Of a DNA stretch of 24,780 nucleotides, positions 15,042 through 22,782 are shown piece after piece (the stretch's first letter is position 1; every line of letters starts with the position of its first letter). The notes below the pieces were generated by a model. It saw only the letters and a list, made by a program, of their open reading frames with translations, was not told the DNA's origin and searched no databases. The translations under genes and the position numbers were made by a program. Source of the stretch: a virus; IMG/VR virus record IMGVR_UViG_3300042935_000742, positions 1 to 24,780 of that record. One strand, 5' to 3'.

Positions 15042-15698
15042 CTATTCTGGAAACGCTTGGCCTGTAATGCGATCGATCGCTGTCTGATATAGACCAGTGA
15101 TGTACTGCTCACGATCACCCACAGCACGATATAGAAAGAAGTCGCGACCCTTCTGCGACTGCTTGAACTGATTCCAGCCCCTGATCACTTTGATACCACC
15201 AGACTTCGTGCGTGCTATCTCGACAGCCTGACCGCCGAGACGCTTCGAGATTGTCTTGCCTGACGACTCGACGCTCTGACTCTCTACACGCTTGACGACG
15301 ACATCTACATCTTCACCATGACGCACCAGAGTGGCACGAGATCGACGACCGCGCACATTCGGTTTCTTGATCAGACGACGAGTATCACGATGAGCACCAA
15401 AGTTTGCGCCACCGAAGTACGGAACTTCTTTGCCGCCACCTGTGACAGCCACACGCAGTTTGCTTGATGACTGCTGCAGTGATGCTGCGGCTGACTTTTC
15501 CATCTTCGTACCAGCGATCTGATTTGCTCGCCTGATGATGATCTCTGCTACTGCTTCGTTCGCCTTCTGTATGATCTCTTCGCTGTGACCTGCATCTGCA
15601 GCGTTCTTGATCGACTTGATGAACTGTGTGTAGTTGATGATCTCGATCTTGCCGAACTGATCTTTCTGACCTTTGATCTCGATGCGCTCAGATGCCAT
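15042..15698 (-). CDS. HK97 gp10-like neck/tail protein with basic insert, 218 aa
   Basis: Possibly a head-tail joining or tail-completion protein. The N-terminal helices (TQFIKSIKNAADAGHSEEII, then AVAEIIIRRANQIAGT) and the central VPYFGGANFGAHRD resemble the gp10 family, which usually reads VPYA-G-x-x-E/N-F-G, and the ending (FFLYRAVGDREQYITGLYQT) resembles its F-L-x-x-A helix. Between them lies an unusual basic stretch of about 70 residues (LIKKPNVRGRRSRATLVRHG and on). Its place after the tail chaperones instead of among the connectors is odd. The start has AGGTGATCACGCATG and follows the end of the frameshifted chaperone by 6 bases. Confidence 0.45.
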   Translation of the reverse strand: MASERIEIKGQKDQFGKIEIINYTQFIKSIKNAADAGHSEEIIQKANEAVAEIIIRRANQIAGTKMEKSAAASLQQSSSKLRVAVTGGGKEVPYFGGANFGAHRDTRRLIKKPNVRGRRSRATLVRHGEDVDVVVKRVESQSVESSGKTISKRLGGQAVEIARTKSGGIKVIRGWNQFKQSQKGRDFFLYRAVGDREQYITGLYQTAIDRITGQAFPE

Positions 15699-15704
15699 GC
15701 GTGA

Positions 15705-16126
15705 TCACCTGCGCTTGCGGCTTTGCTTGGCACGCCACTTCAGATACTCGATCAGAGTGTTGAGCATCGTCTCTGACTCGGCCATCAGTGCTGACGGTGC
15801 GATGCCAGTCTCGATCGCGAGTGATGCAATCAGCCAGTGGTAACTGTCGTCGCCAAAGGGTTACCACCTTCTTCGGCTTTGCTGTCGTCAGCCATCTCGA
15901 CATCTTCAACAGTCTGAATCCAGTCAGGGTCAAACTTGAGACTGGTGTTCTTGCATCGAGTCTCTGCAGACCATGCGAGCCATGCGAGATCAGTGAGCCT
16001 GATCTCTTGCTCGAACTTGGCGACACTGCGTGACCATGTTCTCTCGAACGATACGAAGTCTGCGAAGCGTGCGGTGACATCTCTCGTCTCGCCATCTGTA
16101 AAGTGAACTGTCAGTGCGATCTTCAT
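15705..16126 (-). CDS. Tail assembly chaperone GT, made by -1 frameshift, 140 aa
   Basis: The long form of the tail chaperone. The first 91 codons are shared with protein G. At C_CCT_TTG (15860-15854) the ribosome can slip back by one base, after which the frame stays open for 49 residues (GDDSYHWLIASLAIETGIAP, then SALMAESETMLNTLIEYLKW) to a TGA at 15707-15705. The heptamer fits X_XXY_YYZ in the G frame exactly. The T part resembles the usual T domain with YHWLIAS and YLKW. G and GT proteins coat the tape measure during tail assembly; many siphophages recode here. The slip itself is inference, but the open -1 frame has protein-like content up to the next gene. Confidence 0.8.
15830..16126 (-). 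CDS. Tail assembly chaperone G, 98 aa
   Basis: The short form of the tail chaperone, read without frameshift and ending in GNPLATTVTTG. The start has a strong site, AAAGGGGAACATAGATG. The body (KIALTVHFTDGETRDVTARF, then FVSFERTWSRSVAKFEQEIR and LTDLAWLAW) has the pattern of G-type chaperones. It lies between the tail tube gene and the tape measure gene, the conserved place for this pair. G is normally made in large excess over GT. Confidence 0.85.
   Translation of the reverse strand: MKIALTVHFTDGETRDVTARFADFVSFERTWSRSVAKFEQEIRLTDLAWLAWSAETRCKNTSLKFDPDWIQTVEDVEMADDSKAEEGGNPLATTVTTG
15854..15860 (-). promoter_or_regulatory. Slippery heptamer CCCTTTG for -1 frameshift
   Basis: On the minus strand, codons read AAC CCT TTG, so the heptamer splits as C_CCT_TTG and both tRNAs can re-pair with CCC and TTT. 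A Shine-Dalgarno-like GAAGAAGGTGG lies a few bases upstream and could stimulate slipping, as in dnaX. I see no strong stem directly downstream. Confidence 0.75.
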
Positions 16127-16151: not shown

Positions 16152-16559
16152 TTAGGCTGTGGTCTTTACCAATGTGCCGCCAGTGAATGAAAGCGAAGTC
16201 ATCGCCAACTCACCGACTGCTGCAGCGACAGGTGTGTGCGCTGCCAAGAAAGTATTGGAAACCGTGTAAAGCGGATTCGTCGTGCTGGTCGATGCACTCG
16301 ATGGTCGCACCGTGACAGTGGTCTGTGTGCCGACGAGTGGGAAGACAGTCGCTTCAACTTCTGATGCTGCAAAATCTTGCATGAACTCGACATCTACTGT
16401 GATGTTCTGCAATCCACCAACAAAGGTGTGACCACTGCTACCAAAGGTTGTTGATTCAACACTGTCGATCTCATAGGTAAGGGTCACGCTGTTTGCGCGG
16501 TCGCTGAGTACTACACCGTTCACGGTGATGTCTGCGTTAGTAAGTACGAGTTGAGCCAT
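16152..16559 (-). CDS. Major tail tube protein, 135 aa
   Basis: Subunit of the tail tube. The protein is almost all beta: LVLTNADITVNGVVLSDRAN, VTLTYEIDSVESTTFGSSGH and ITVDVEFMQDFAASEVEATV, ending LAMTSLSFTGGTLVKTTA. The S-V-E-S-T-T-F-G turn, the residues TFVGGLQN and the length fit the short tail tube proteins of siphophages. It sits directly before the chaperone genes, the conserved position. A site AGAAAGAAGA precedes the start. It ends 25 bases before the chaperone start, with the chaperone's own ribosome binding site in between, as expected for a highly expressed gene. Confidence 0.85.
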   Translation of the reverse strand: MAQLVLTNADITVNGVVLSDRANSVTLTYEIDSVESTTFGSSGHTFVGGLQNITVDVEFMQDFAASEVEATVFPLVGTQTTVTVRPSSASTSTTNPLYTVSNTFLAAHTPVAAAVGELAMTSLSFTGGTLVKTTA

Positions 16560-16743: not shown

Positions 16744-17151
16744 CTAAGCGTGCACTACAACTGTGCACTGTACTTGCAGGAACTCTGCTTCGGCAACCGA
16801 TACCGCCGATATATTTACACCGCTCTCGACTACCAGTGTGCGAGCCACACCGCCGAGAGTAGGGTCGCCTTCGATGGCTGCGCGTATAGATGTAGCACCG
16901 TCATATGACAGATACCCATCGAGAGCAGTATGTGCAGTGCGATCGATGTACCTGCCGACTATCACGAACACTGAGCAGCGCATGACGACATCGCCACCAC
17001 CGAACGACTTGTGATACTCGACTGACTCGATGACAGGGAATCCCACAGGTGGGTTCAGTTGGTCAGGCATGTAGGTAGATGTGCGCAGACCTGAGATCGT
17101 GCCGAGTCTGGTGGCCAGACCTGTGAGAACCTGAGAGACAGTGGCAGCCAT
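16744..17151 (-). CDS. Tail terminator-like protein, 135 aa
   Basis: Probably caps the tail tube and joins it to the head. It opens with a helix (TVSQVLTGLATRLGTISGLR), then PVGFPVIESVEYHKSFGGGD and a strand set (VMRCSVFVIVGRYIDRTAHT), then LDGYLSYDGATSIRAAIEGD, ending with VQCTVVVHA. The helix-strand order and the place between the connector and the tail tube gene fit tail terminators of siphophages. The start shares one base with the connector stop (TGATG). The call rests on pattern and position. Confidence 0.6.
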   Translation of the reverse strand: MAATVSQVLTGLATRLGTISGLRTSTYMPDQLNPPVGFPVIESVEYHKSFGGGDVVMRCSVFVIVGRYIDRTAHTALDGYLSYDGATSIRAAIEGDPTLGGVARTLVVESGVNISAVSVAEAEFLQVQCTVVVHA

Positions 17152-18022: not shown

Positions 18023-19339
18023 TTAGAAGGTTGGTGTTACTAGACCAGTTCCACCGACCAAAGCAAACGCGTTTGGATAACGATTTGCTGTGAAAGCACT
18101 GTATCCATAAACGATCATCTGCACATCGAGTTCAGAACCTTTCGGCTGCTCGAAGCGAAGCATCATCGGTTCGCCACTGCCCTGCTCGAACAAGTGTGCT
18201 TCCTGACTGTTGCCGACGATGATCACATCTTCGTTTGCACCTGCGCCGTTTGTCGTGATGACATTGGCATCAGTGACCACAGGAATGCCTGCGATCGCAT
18301 AGCCGCTCTGTGCGTACTGTGCTGCACCGCTACCTGTGGCGATCGGGTTGAAACCGTAAGGCGTAGGTACTGCGAGTGGTCGGTCTGTGCTATCGACTGC
18401 AGCCAAGATGAATGCGAGTCGTCGTGGGTGCATCAGAATGAAGTTCGGTGTCTGGAAGTAGTTCGTCTGCACACGCTGAATGGCATCGAGCAACTTCGGA
18501 TAAAGTTCCTTCACTGTCGGTGATGCGTCGGTGTAGGTGACTACCTGTGTGATCACATTGGTGAGTGATGTCGCACTGGTCGTGACGAACAATGAATCAA
18601 GGTTCGTGTGGTATGCAGATACGAGATCAGCCATCACGAGCGAGTCGATGTTTGTGCCGCGCTCGATTGCCTGACGACTCACATTCTGCTGACCAGCAAC
18701 AGTGACCACAGAGACATCGAGTTTGGTGTCATCCATGTTGGTCTCTTGTACTGCTGAGCCTTCAGTCTGTACTGCAGTGGCTGAGCCAGTCGTGACCTTC
18801 GAGATCGAGATGACAAGACCTGAGTCTGGCAACTGATGCTTACGAGCGATCTCAAGGAATGGTCGGCCTGCGCGTGCGAATGGTGCAGCGAGTTCAGTCA
18901 AGAACTGTGGCACGATGAGACCAGCAAATGCTGCACTGGTGACATCACGACGCTCGATGCGCTCTTCATTCATGTGGCGCGATAGACGCTCTTTGGCTGA
19001 GAAGTCACCAGAGAACTGAGCAGCGTATGCGTCAGCGATGAATGATGTCTCAGACTTTGGTGAGTAGGTGCGTGCTTCGCTCTTGACGACAGCAGGTGCG
19101 ACTACGGTCTCGATGCCAGAAGCCTTGCGTGCTTCGGCGGCTGCAGCGTTGCGGCCTTCGAGTTCAGAGTGACGCTTGATTTGCTCGTCGAGATCACGCA
19201 CGACATCGAGTGACGATGCGATCTGTGAATCTTCTTCGATGGAAAGTGCACGCTCTTCGGTTGCTGCAGATGCCACGAGTGCATCAGCCTTTGCAAGTTC
19301 TGCGTCGCGCTTCTCGATTAGTTGCTTTGAGTAGGTCAT
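18023..19339 (-). CDS. Major capsid protein, HK97 fold, 438 aa
   Basis: Forms the head shell. I chose ATG at 19339 because GAAGGAACAAACACATG precedes it; the frame extends upstream to 19468 without such a site. Residues 1 to about 75 form a charged helix (QLIEKRDAELAKADALVASA, then VVRDLDEQIKRHSELEGRNA), the delta domain that acts as scaffold and is cut off by the protease encoded upstream. The mature part has the E-loop and spine order of HK97 capsids: FAGLIVPQFLTELAAPFARA, SGLVISISKVTTGSATAVQT, QQNVSRQAIERGTNIDSLV, and later TPYGFNPIATGSGAAQYAQS with GIPVVTDANV. It ends VGGTGLVTPTF. The gene is preceded by an 82-base gap and followed by a hairpin, which fits high and separate expression. 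Confidence 0.95.
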   Translation of the reverse strand: MTYSKQLIEKRDAELAKADALVASAATEERALSIEEDSQIASSLDVVRDLDEQIKRHSELEGRNAAAAEARKASGIETVVAPAVVKSEARTYSPKSETSFIADAYAAQFSGDFSAKERLSRHMNEERIERRDVTSAAFAGLIVPQFLTELAAPFARAGRPFLEIARKHQLPDSGLVISISKVTTGSATAVQTEGSAVQETNMDDTKLDVSVVTVAGQQNVSRQAIERGTNIDSLVMADLVSAYHTNLDSLFVTTSATSLTNVITQVVTYTDASPTVKELYPKLLDAIQRVQTNYFQTPNFILMHPRRLAFILAAVDSTDRPLAVPTPYGFNPIATGSGAAQYAQSGYAIAGIPVVTDANVITTNGAGANEDVIIVGNSQEAHLFEQGSGEPMMLRFEQPKGSELDVQMIVYGYSAFTANRYPNAFALVGGTGLVTPTF

Positions 19340-19421
19340 GTGTTTGTTCCTTCGTGAGTTTTCTGATGGGTGTATCAGTGGCTCACTCAGTGACCTATCT
19401 GGTCGGCTGTGAGTCGGCTGA
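19340..19421 (-). other. 82-bp leader of the capsid gene
   Basis: A gap between the protease stop and the capsid start holding the ribosome binding site GAAGGAA and a direct repeat, GTCGGCTG at 19402-19409 and again at 19413-19420 on the plus strand. I see no convincing promoter boxes. In a genome with almost no gaps such a leader suggests a separate start or processing site for capsid mRNA. Confidence 0.4.
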
Positions 19422-21320
19422 CTATCGTTGGCGAGCCAGAGCGATCTGTGCTTTGCGCACAGAGACACTGGTCGTCGATGTCACTGTACTTGATGATTGC
19501 GCGGTGCGCAACTCAGCGATCGTTTCTTCATATGCAGGGAATGTCACGACGCTCACATCAAACAACTGCACTTCTCGCAACTCTCTGACCGATCGATCAC
19601 TCGACCATGAATCTTGTATCGTGCGAAAGGCAAACGACATCTGGCTCATATCACCGCGACGCATAGCAGAGATCACTCGTGCCGCATCAGGGTTGGCAGG
19701 GTCGAGATCAGCAGTGACCTTCAGGCCGCGCTCATCTTCTTCGAGCATCAGCGTGCCAGACTTCGTGCGTGCCAGTGGCACACCTTCGTGATCTATGAGC
19801 AGCCGCACATCAGCACCATCTTTGATCGTCTTCTGAAACGCGCCGCGCTTCACATACTCTGTAAATGGCATCGGCTCAGATGGTGAGTCGAACACTGCTG
19901 CATAACCGACTAGATGATTGCCATCACCCATCTCACGAAATTCCATTGTGGTATATGCGACTCGACGCTCATCAGCACCAGTCACGCACCATCGGTGTTC
20001 CATACTTGCTAGATCATCGGTCATCTCGATCATTGTAGCCATATCTGTATTCGCTGCGCGACTACTCGACTTCGAGTACTTCGGGTGTGACGGTTTGAGC
20101 AGATCATTGTCTGTGATGTACTTCGGGTTCTGTGGTCGGCCATTCTTTGAGAGATACAGGAAGGCATTGACGCGAGCCATCGCCCACTGCGCTCTGCTTA
20201 CATTCGGTCTGTGACTAGCAGAGAACGCACCTGCACCGCGTCGATACACCGACTTCAGTGCACCCAGAGATACGCGAGACCACTCAGGTTTATCTGCTTC
20301 CTTCATCTCGTCATTGTGCGTCTGTACTTTATTCTGCAGCGCAGTCTCGGTCGCCGCCGATAGCACTATGTTCCCAGTCTTGCCCTGTGCTGATAGCGGC
20401 TCGTTCTTGTCTGAGCCAATGATCTGATCTTTCGGTGGTGCAGGTGGGTCTGCTCTCTGCTCAGCATCTAGGCGTGTGACGATCTGCTCTGCATATCTCT
20501 GTGCTCTGAGTGCTGTGGCTTTGGTCGAGCCACCACCCCACAGCAGCATTGCGACCTGACCTGCGGTGATCTCGTCACCATCTACTGCTTCGAGATCGAC
20601 CAGATGGCGTGCTATCCATGCACCGATCTTGCGCCACTTGCCTTCACTCACTTCACCATCAGCCATGCGTCGTGCATCAGCGACAGTGGCAGGCATGAGA
20701 CCATCACCAGAGAGACCTTGCTCATGTAGTCGCAGGCCGCGTCGTGCAGATGCTCGCATGAACTCTGGTGCAGACAGATCGACTTCAGCACGCATCTCAT
20801 ATTTGGCTTGATCGATCTCGTCAGATGGCTGCTCTTGCAGCAGTCGATCTGGTATGACATTGAATCTGCATATGCCTTCTGGCGCGATGTCACCTTCTAC
20901 GATATGGCACATGCCATCACCTTCATAGAAAGCACAGTGAGCGCACATGCGGCCGATCGCTGCATCAGGTGACTCACGCTGATAGTCGCAGCCATCAGCA
21001 TCACTGGCCTGTGACCACATGCCATACTGCTCAGCGATCTGCTCTAGTGCTTCATACATAACTGACTGTCGTGGTGTCAGGTCATACTCATCATCATCGA
21101 TCTCTGTCTCGATCTCTGACTCACCTTCGATCATGTCATCGAGTGCTCTGATCTCGCCTAGTGGCTCGACATCTTCTGCCATCGAGACGACGACCATCTG
21201 ATCGATCGCATCTTGCTTTGACTGATGGCAGCCAATCGTGGTGTATGTGCCATCACTCTCTTGCTTGACTGTCGCATATGTCGCGCAGTCACTCTGCTGC
21301 TGAGATATCCCGTATGGCAT
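19422..21320 (-). CDS. Multidomain fusion ending in HK97-type prohead protease (S78), 632 aa
   Basis: The C-terminal part (about 455-605) is the serine protease that matures the prohead: HLVGYAAVFDSPSEP, VKRGAFQKTI, VRLLIDHEG with His511, MSQMSFAF with Ser562, and QLFDVSVVTFPAY. Before it lie at least four modules: residues 1-45 with CATYATVKQ and GCHQSKQDAIDQM; 104-153 with a Cys set (111, 126, 129, 138, 151) around MCAHCAFYEGDGMCHI; 205-285 with MPATVADARRMADGEVSEGK and AGQVAMLLWGGG; and 326-413 with RRGAGAFSASHR, QWAMARVNAFLYL and NPKYITDNDLLKPSHP. I recall each as a separate small domain near phage head genes. Usual S78 proteases have about 150-250 residues, so this is very long. The frame is unbroken; an internal start giving protease alone is possible. 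Confidence 0.85.
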   Translation of the reverse strand: MPYGISQQQSDCATYATVKQESDGTYTTIGCHQSKQDAIDQMVVVSMAEDVEPLGEIRALDDMIEGESEIETEIDDDEYDLTPRQSVMYEALEQIAEQYGMWSQASDADGCDYQRESPDAAIGRMCAHCAFYEGDGMCHIVEGDIAPEGICRFNVIPDRLLQEQPSDEIDQAKYEMRAEVDLSAPEFMRASARRGLRLHEQGLSGDGLMPATVADARRMADGEVSEGKWRKIGAWIARHLVDLEAVDGDEITAGQVAMLLWGGGSTKATALRAQRYAEQIVTRLDAEQRADPPAPPKDQIIGSDKNEPLSAQGKTGNIVLSAATETALQNKVQTHNDEMKEADKPEWSRVSLGALKSVYRRGAGAFSASHRPNVSRAQWAMARVNAFLYLSKNGRPQNPKYITDNDLLKPSHPKYSKSSSRAANTDMATMIEMTDDLASMEHRWCVTGADERRVAYTTMEFREMGDGNHLVGYAAVFDSPSEPMPFTEYVKRGAFQKTIKDGADVRLLIDHEGVPLARTKSGTLMLEEDERGLKVTADLDPANPDAARVISAMRRGDMSQMSFAFRTIQDSWSSDRSVRELREVQLFDVSVVTFPAYEETIAELRTAQSSSTVTSTTSVSVRKAQIALARQR

Positions 21321-21322
21321 AG

Positions 21323-21580
21323 TCAGTCAGTATCAGGTGTCAGCACGATGACAGCGTGAGTACTGCTTGCAGTCACCGCGTACAGCGTTTCTTTTTGTGG
21401 AATAAATAATGAAACCGATTCGCTATTTCCTAGATGGAAGCCTGTGCTCGATGTGACACTACTGCCGCCGAGATATACCTTGCCGCTTCCAGCGTTGTGC
21501 AAATACACAGTGCGGTTGAAATCATCTGACGGTACACACAGCACAGGTGCAGTACCGACTGAGACAGATATCGATCGCAT
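21323..21580 (-). CDS. Small beta-rich head-region protein, 85 aa
   Basis: Function unknown; possibly a head decoration or fitting protein. It is rich in beta strands: RTVYLHNAGSGKVYLGGSSV, then TGFHLGNSESVSLFIPQ and TLYAVTASSTHAVIVLTPDT. I recall the V-Y-L-G-G-x-x-V turn from small phage proteins of this kind. The central part has fewer GATC and more A/T (GGAATAAATAATG on the plus strand) than its neighbours, hinting at exchange. It is set with 2-base gaps between portal and protease fusion. Confidence 0.55.
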   Translation of the reverse strand: MRSISVSVGTAPVLCVPSDDFNRTVYLHNAGSGKVYLGGSSVTSSTGFHLGNSESVSLFIPQKETLYAVTASSTHAVIVLTPDTD

Positions 21581-21582
21581 GA

Positions 21583-22782
21583 CTAAGCCTTCGGCGGTTT
21601 GCTATCGACACCCAGTGTCGGTGCATCACCACCTTCGATACCTGCGATCGGTGCACCTGCGATACCGAGCACGAACTGGTCGCCACCTTCATACGGTTCA
21701 CGGTTCTCTTGCTCGCGTGCTTCGTTCGGTGACAGTGTGCCTGACATGATCTGCACCTGCTGTGCACGCACTCTGGTGATCAGGTCTGCACGCATGAACT
21801 CATCTGCATTGAATCTCACACGCTGAGTGAGTGGCAGCATCTCGCTGATCGCATCTTCCAGTCTGCGCATGAATGGCAGCAGTGTATATCGCACGAAGTT
21901 CACACCAGCCGATTCGATGTTCTGATATGTCTGTGAATCGCCACCTGTACCGAGTATCAGATGCAGTGGGATACGGTACACGCGAGCGATGTCTCTCACG
22001 ATCGCTTCACGATGTTCGAGCATCTGCATATCTGCAGCACTCGTGGTGATCGATCGCCACTTCAGGCCGCCTGTGAGTACAGCAGGTTTGCGTCGGCGCA
22101 CATGCGAGTCTTCCCATGTGTCGCGCAGTATCTGCGCCTGCTCTGTGGTGATCGTAGTGTCAGTCTCTAGCACGCTCGATGGTGTCGCGCCTTCGCCATA
22201 GAACTGAGATAGGAATCTATCCATCGCGATCGACATGCCGATGGTGTTCTTCATGGCTTCGAGTGGTGAGATACCTACCATCTGATTCGGTAGCAGCAAC
22301 CAGTGAATCGCTCTGAGATCAGTCGATGTCAGTGTTTGATTCTTGCCGAGCGTATAGACGATCGAACCATCGTCGGCATATACCTGACCCCTGATCTCTC
22401 GTGGGTGAATGTTCCGCATCTCTGATGGCAGACCACCTGCGGTGCGCGGTGCATAGATGTATGCGTTGCCATGTATCGCGAGTGTGAGCACAGTCTGGTG
22501 CACGAACTCGAACATGGTCTGATGCGCGTTCGGTTTCATCAGCACTGATGGTGTCGGCAGTTTCTCGATGCGACCTGCACGCTGCACAGTCAGTTCGAGT
22601 GGCATCGATGCGATCGAGTCAGCCAGAAGGTTCGTCGATGCTAGAACTGCAGACGATGCAAACGCTGTGAGTTCGGTGACGATCTCACCTGAATAGTTAT
22701 TGTAGAACGGTCGAGCGGTGATCTGATATGGGTCGATGCTCGTAGGTAGTGCGCGACGCTCAGTGTTCTTCCAGAGACTCAT
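21583..22782 (-). CDS. Portal protein, HK97 type, 399 aa
   Basis: Forms the dodecameric ring through which DNA enters and leaves the head. Family features in order: ASTNLLADSIASMPLELTVQ near residue 50-70, LTLAIHGNAYIYAPR, a wing region, HWLLLPNQMVGISPLEAMKN, and SQFYGEGATPSSVLETDTTI. The stem and crown part has HREAIVRDIARVYRIPLHLI and SAGVNFVRYTLLPFMRRLED, ending with NEAREQENREPYEGGDQFVL, the usual N-E-x-R-x-x-E-x-x-P motif. Length is normal for the family. The start overlaps the 46-residue membrane peptide stop as ATGA. Confidence 0.95.
   Translation of the reverse strand: MSLWKNTERRALPTSIDPYQITARPFYNNYSGEIVTELTAFASSAVLASTNLLADSIASMPLELTVQRAGRIEKLPTPSVLMKPNAHQTMFEFVHQTVLTLAIHGNAYIYAPRTAGGLPSEMRNIHPREIRGQVYADDGSIVYTLGKNQTLTSTDLRAIHWLLLPNQMVGISPLEAMKNTIGMSIAMDRFLSQFYGEGATPSSVLETDTTITTEQAQILRDTWEDSHVRRRKPAVLTGGLKWRSITTSAADMQMLEHREAIVRDIARVYRIPLHLILGTGGDSQTYQNIESAGVNFVRYTLLPFMRRLEDAISEMLPLTQRVRFNADEFMRADLITRVRAQQVQIMSGTLSPNEAREQENREPYEGGDQFVLGIAGAPIAGIEGGDAPTLGVDSKPPKA

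Follow-up and report, generated by a model that had tools for sequence, protein, structure and literature searches.

A prohead protease at the C-terminal end of a mosaic multidomain phage protein

Prohead proteases of the HK97 gp4 type are stand-alone proteins of roughly 200 aa. In the virus genome studied here, a complete IMG/VR record of 24,780 bases that we refer to as the window, the same catalytic domain family forms the C-terminal third of a 632-aa chain, which raises the question of what the preceding part contributes and whether it has to be joined to the protease at all. A preliminary description of this DNA had reported a single frame of 632 residues, and this frame is present exactly at 19422-21320, on the minus strand (from 21320 down to 19422), a direction that the description omitted. 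The segments it named all lie in the frame, namely a GCHQSKQDAIDQ segment, a Cys cluster, a WGGG module, a RRGAGAFSASHR...NAFLYL module, and an S78 protease domain at residues 462-608. Its statement that the usual enzyme is about one-third of the fused size is borne out by relatives that encode the protease separately, in which the S78 frames span 200-252 aa from stop to stop where complete; two longer S78 open frames, of 378 and 429 aa, were seen in the third scan.

The protease domain and its gene

Profile searches assigned the S78 segment to Pfam PF04586 (Peptidase_S78; E = 9.2e-42, 143.4 bits against a cut-off of 21) and to the NCBIfam HK97 proheadase family TIGR01543 (E = 1.7e-35, 122.3 bits against a cut-off of 59), and the PHROG match of the protein was phrog_80, head maturation protease. 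H511 and S562, which we take to be the catalytic residues of S78, were kept in 95 of 95 alignment rows (the window counted twice). The gene sits between those for the portal and the capsid protein; upstream lie an 85-aa gene, the portal gene, and the large terminase gene, and downstream lies the major capsid protein (MCP) gene. Judged by profile, His/Ser pair, and gene position, the window protein is an S78/HK97 prohead protease, and in the predicted chain this enzyme makes up the last third of a precursor with several domains. This make-up explains why annotation pipelines give such proteins one-domain names such as protease, capsid protein, or hypothetical.

The protease start lies two bases past the stop of the 85-aa gene (21320-21325) and has no clear ribosome site, an arrangement that suggests translational coupling. 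No Pfam family matched the 85-aa product. For the MCP we took as start the ATG at 19339, 44 codons into the open frame and preceded by the Shine-Dalgarno-like stretch aagga; the frame as listed begins at a GTG that falls within the protease gene (19339-19468), and the ATG with its ribosome site is likelier.

A frame error joining two genes had been named as one finding that would undo the fusion. Relatives with split genes do occur, as this explanation would have it, but two contigs from other datasets (L002 and L003) carry the 632-aa frame at 100% identity, the fusion recurs in many diverged relatives, and a fused version is found in the cultured phage phiPsal1. At least 598 of at least 599 candidate IMG/VR stretches encode a relative, the best 80 of which were kept. 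We therefore reject a sequencing or assembly error, whose probability we consider negligible, and regard the fusion of an entire S78 domain to several further modules as real and conserved.

Table 1. Features of the head gene region in the window
Feature	Position	Strand	Description
Major capsid protein (MCP)	18023..19339	-	phrog_2263, E 9.5e-49
Fused prohead protease gene	19422..21320	-	632 aa, 69.9 kDa, pI 4.84
S78 prohead protease domain	19485..19970	-	residues 451-612; H511 and S562 invariant
Junction	19971..20060	-	residues 421-450; gene break site in split relatives
DUF5824 module	20061..20360	-	residues 321-420; three helices; basic, pI 10
WGGG module	20457..20801	-	residues 174-288; all-helical; phrog_2859; invariant columns
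HiPIP-like four-cysteine module	20826..21011	-	modelled residues 104-165; C126, C129, C138, C151
Acidic linker	20967..21149	-	residues 58-118; net charge -16; poorly conserved
GCH module	21150..21320	-	residues 1-57; predicted three strands and helix; weakly DUF2188-like
Small 85-aa gene, portal-protease interval	21323..21580	-	kept in many relatives
Portal protein gene	21583..22782	-	PF04860, E 2.8e-72

Modules of the N-terminal part

An AlphaFold2 model of the protein, built on 43 aligned relatives (mean pLDDT, 74.8), was confident for GCH, for the WGGG helices within residues 186-288, and for the DUF5824 helices within 322-393, and not confident for the linker and the Cys region. The pLDDT exceeded 90 over most of GCH and was mostly >90 in WGGG. 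DUF2188 was matched by GCH in 8 of the 43 relatives (best E = 0.0084), and the window's own GCH module gave no match to it. Only 7 of 61 fused relatives have residues in the linker columns. DUF5824 (PF19141) was recognized at residues 349-398 (E = 3.2e-7; 31 bits, above the cut-off of 25), a stretch also matched by phrog_28338; PHROG matches named "cytidyltransferase" (phrog_3041) are due to this shared stretch and were discarded. Beside the linkers, the junction is the least conserved stretch, with a mean identity to the window of 0.16 versus 0.52-0.63 in GCH, WGGG, DUF5824, and S78. Median dN/dS over pairs of relatives, which are not mutually independent, was 0.11 for GCH, 0.107 for WGGG, 0.097 for DUF5824, and 0.073 for S78, low values that speak against a chance open frame.

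Foldseek gave no match of WGGG or DUF5824 to the PDB at E <= 0.001 (180 matches at E up to 10), and profile searches returned one weak match for WGGG (E = 0.48) and none for DUF5824. In a viral structure library there were 44 matches at E <= 0.001, and those listed included prohead protease, XkdF, HAD-like, ParB/Sulfiredoxin, ChaB, and portal proteins, which suggests that the modules travel among head-region proteins. Likeness of WGGG/DUF5824 to a sigma-factor helical region (best VIA Z, 5.4) was within the range of common helical arrangements, and OGG-like matches of WGGG (21 of 41 members, best E = 0.0014), with the window under the cut-off, were taken as weak; neither assignment was kept. 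DUF5824 was not found in the open-licence PMC literature, where subscription papers are mostly missing.

The Cys cluster had been described as a possible metal site, and it does look like one. Its four cysteines are invariant in 38 of 38 aligned modules, and C111 is a further cysteine of the cluster. A PDB profile search with the 38 sequences had as its best match 3h31, the high-potential iron-sulfur protein (HiPIP) of Rhodothermus marinus (E = 1.1e-5); HiPIPs or PioC filled the first 9 of 18 rows, only two of which were below 1e-3. A profile restricted to the 18 sequences of the window's subtype likewise placed 3h31 first (E = 2.1e-5), followed by rows at 0.018 and 0.031. The four cysteines and a G-I-x-P-x-G-x-C pattern align between 3h31 and the window module. 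When the module was modelled by itself (pLDDT, 73.6), 3h31 was also the top Foldseek match (probability, 0.82; TM, 0.50), at an E value of only 0.36, and in a VIA comparison with 10 chains all 6 with Z >= 2 were HiPIPs (best Z, 4.7; rmsd, 2.3; 48 aligned). With E values of up to 1 allowed, Pfam HIPIP (PF01355) matched 30 of the 38 members, the best of them at 1.4e-4, but the window module stays below the cut-off (12.7 versus 22 bits, E = 0.17) and is thus termed HiPIP-like rather than classed as a family member; a HIPIP family search of the whole record gave no match. By profile and predicted fold, then, the Cys module is nearest to HiPIPs, and its site is a putative metal site.

One would not expect a head precursor to contain an iron-sulfur module. 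The window's version differs from 3h31 in being a module of ~60 aa within a phage precursor made in the cytoplasm. In open-licence literature, with subscription papers mostly missing, a search for HiPIP together with bacteriophage and capsid found only membrane-vesicle work (by title), and "high potential iron-sulfur protein" was absent from the matches listed in PMC.

Fused and split forms among relatives

Two scans of viral sequences and one of genomes provided the relatives, 157 loci in all. Counting sequences as distinct when the last 120 residues of the frame bearing the N-terminal part differ, and setting aside 45 duplicates and 9 incomplete loci, we were left with 100 distinct sequences, counting the window, in which both parts are present; the two are fused in 73 and encoded separately in 27. 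Since the loci are those most like the query (the best 80 of each list), 73:27 is not a population frequency; the tally needs WGGG and S78 by construction and leaves out L083-L085. The third scan, some of whose contigs repeat those of the earlier scans, gave 53 distinct sequences, of which 35 were fused, 13 were split, and 5 showed no S78 in the stored sequence.

Each of the 27 split cases has the gene for the N-terminal part directly upstream of a short S78 gene, and in 22 the MCP follows S78, as far as the stored DNA shows. A Shine-Dalgarno-like stretch precedes one of the first two starts in 25 of the 27 split protease genes, L113 and L138 being the exceptions. Separate genes with a clear start, which had been proposed as evidence against the fusion, are thus found in relatives, while the fusion in the window stands. 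The suggestion that the link itself matters, by coupling capsid filling to protease delivery, fares less well, with a gene for each part in 27 of the 100 sequences. In a 94-row S78 tree, which has long branches, fused and split states changed 7 times (at least 2 changes forced by strong branches) versus a shuffled mean of 23.1; presence changed 10 times for DUF5824 and 12 times for the Cys module.

The N-terminal part is also variable in content. Among 65 non-redundant proteins, searches at E <= 0.01 found DUF5824 in 52, S78 in 45, HAD acid phosphatase in 4, DUF3721 in 4, and ADP-ribosyltransferase (ART), TUDOR, and HIPIP in 2 each. HAD occurs at three places, between WGGG and S78 (L022), between GCH and WGGG (L154), and between DUF5824 and WGGG (L229); ART ends the split N-terminal genes of L113 (3920-5449, E = 3e-18) and L159 (2217-3686, E = 3.9e-15), and a TUDOR domain is present in L049. 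Two relatives have the reversed order, with S78 first and then WGGG and DUF5824 (L185, 3296-4912; L190, 3218-4876). As side observations, L185 is where the only LPD22 match was seen (E = 0.008), and DUF3721 (L147, E = 4e-10; L200, E = 6.5e-12) lies between GCH and WGGG, the place of the Cys module in others. Taken together, the N-terminal part is, at the level of sequence, a mosaic of four modules whose fused and split forms exchange freely in relatives.

This exchange, along with modules that come and go, indicates that covalent linkage is optional and leaves the scaffold role put forward in the preliminary description unsupported. Protease-scaffold fusions are known in other systems, and the N-terminal part shares with scaffolds an acidic composition overall (pI 4.68) and a position adjoining the MCP. 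Nevertheless, the model has no long coiled core, module content is variable, a single chain is not needed, and the MCP of phiPsal1 is annotated "HK97 including scaffold/propeptide", that is, with a scaffold of its own. In the window MCP, a charged stretch of ~100 residues at the N terminus may be a delta-type domain. We consider it very unlikely that the N-terminal part is a head scaffolding protein joined to its protease.

Alternatively, one gene could yield two products if translation also began within it, at the junction, and gave a short protease, an arrangement seen in the nested head genes C/Nu3 of lambda. A junction ATG with a strong Shine-Dalgarno sequence was found in 8 of 41 fused clusters, versus 2.58 expected from synonymous reshuffles, 2 of 1,000 of which reached 8; elsewhere in the genes the figure was 4 of 501, and a looser motif gave 14 of 41 versus 8.9 expected (3 of 500 reshuffles). 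The excess weakens when GTG and TTG are allowed (24 of 1,000 reshuffles reach 8), L155 and L156 come from one MAG and are thus counted twice, and the signal could be a remnant of gene fusion. Thus, some fused relatives may also make a short protease, or may carry the scar of a recent fusion; as an account of this gene, a second product seems improbable. In the window an internal protease start was rejected, with no Shine-Dalgarno-like site at the candidate starts of residues 427-476.

Possible roles of the N-terminal part and closest known systems

Our preferred reading, to which sequence and analogy lend about an even chance, is that the N-terminal part is a passenger, taken up into the procapsid attached to the protease or alongside it and later released by proteolysis. 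Fusion to the protease would carry the N-terminal part into the procapsid, and in split relatives an affinity of its own for that assembly would do so. The activated protease would then cut the capsid protein and its own junction, and the freed part would remain in the head as an internal protein and may exit together with the DNA. Self-cleavage with release of the N-terminal part, as first suggested, is plausible. That relatives often encode the front part separately makes it probable that it is a passenger, and its module content varies between phages as expected of cargo and unlike a scaffold, to judge from the relatives compared.

Several observations count against a passenger. The window modules include no recognized effector enzyme, and enzymes are present in few relatives (HAD in 4 of 65 and ART in 2 of 65). 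The junction has no conserved cleavage motif that can be named, and split N-terminal genes have no protease as carrier, which means that fusion cannot be how loading works in general. GCH and WGGG also adjoin portal-like and XkdF-like proteins, which fits an assembly role as well. The N-terminal part could accordingly be an adaptor confined to the procapsid, with WGGG and GCH docking the protease to portal or capsid before being discarded after maturation. WGGG columns are filled in every listed alignment row and hold the most invariant residues, the gene always accompanies portal and MCP where seen, and portal, XkdF, and prohead protease proteins are among the fold matches in the viral library. 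HAD and ART insertions, however, serve no plain docking purpose, and modules are lost and reordered in relatives. We hold this adaptor to be possible but on the unlikely side.

Were the N-terminal part indeed a passenger, very common aquatic phages would swap virion cargo via one gene beside the head protease, and the naturally occurring fused and split pairs would allow one to ask directly whether cargo must be covalently linked in order to be loaded. More tentatively still, and doubtfully, the protease or the preceding gene slot in small aquatic phages might be a loading dock for swappable passengers, of HiPIP type and, in relatives, of ART or HAD type, that would be incorporated into the head, set free by the protease during maturation, and passed to the host; the iron-sulfur module would then be a redox-active head part of a kind not described for capsid proteases. 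Of 50,697 phage records, 189 match the N-terminal part (residues 1-437), comprising 183 from Salinibacter, 4 from Roseobacter, 1 from Pontimonas, and 1 from Actinomycetia. Among genome contigs, 6 of 53 candidates were relatives, and the MAGs include Microbacteriaceae and Candidatus Actinomarina.

The general kind of protein is already known, and PHROG 80 already holds the fused form. Pontimonas phage phiPsal1 resembles the window closely, in that a single 484-aa chain (AUV61415.1) contains GCH, four-Cys, WGGG, and S78 and is encoded, as in the window, between portal plus small gene and MCP. The protein is annotated as a prohead protease and matches phrog_80 over its full length (E = 8e-128); unlike the window protein, it is shorter and lacks DUF5824, and the two share about 37% identity over 68% of the window protein. 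In Roseobacter phage CRP-821, a 974-aa "major capsid protein" (L083, 3974-6898) has WGGG and a DUF5824-like segment, the latter scoring under the cut-off, before an S78-like domain; this chain of four parts differs from the window in including the capsid protein itself (Phage_capsid, E = 2.8e-31).

A broader parallel is provided by polyvalent phage proteins, for which excerpts of Iyer et al. 2017 (PMC5512222) describe assemblin-like peptidases at the C termini and propose processing by such peptidases during virion assembly. Like the window protein, these chains combine multiple domains with a terminal peptidase of the head-protease type, and their ART domains recur in two window relatives (L113 and L159). 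As far as those excerpts extend, the differences are that the window has no recognized ART, LPD, or other effector domain, that LPD22 of the polyvalent set matches only 1 of 41 WGGG modules (E = 0.001), that the polyvalent peptidase is "always at the C termini" whereas two window relatives have the protease first, and that the window family alternates between gene-fused and gene-split forms. In giant phages, according to excerpts of PMC5694885, the head protease cuts itself, the MCP, the portal, and ejection proteins. The HiPIP-like module, fused/split exchange, and internal junction starts were not found in the open-licence literature, from which subscription papers are mostly missing.

Two minor observations concern the surroundings of these genes. 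In Actinomycetia phage DSL-LC01 (L085, 4590-5633), DUF5824 occurs near the portal in a 347-aa protein without S78. In the window, three separate 135-aa frames lie on the minus strand (15688-16095, 16152-16559, and 16744-17151), the last of which matches a tail terminator family.
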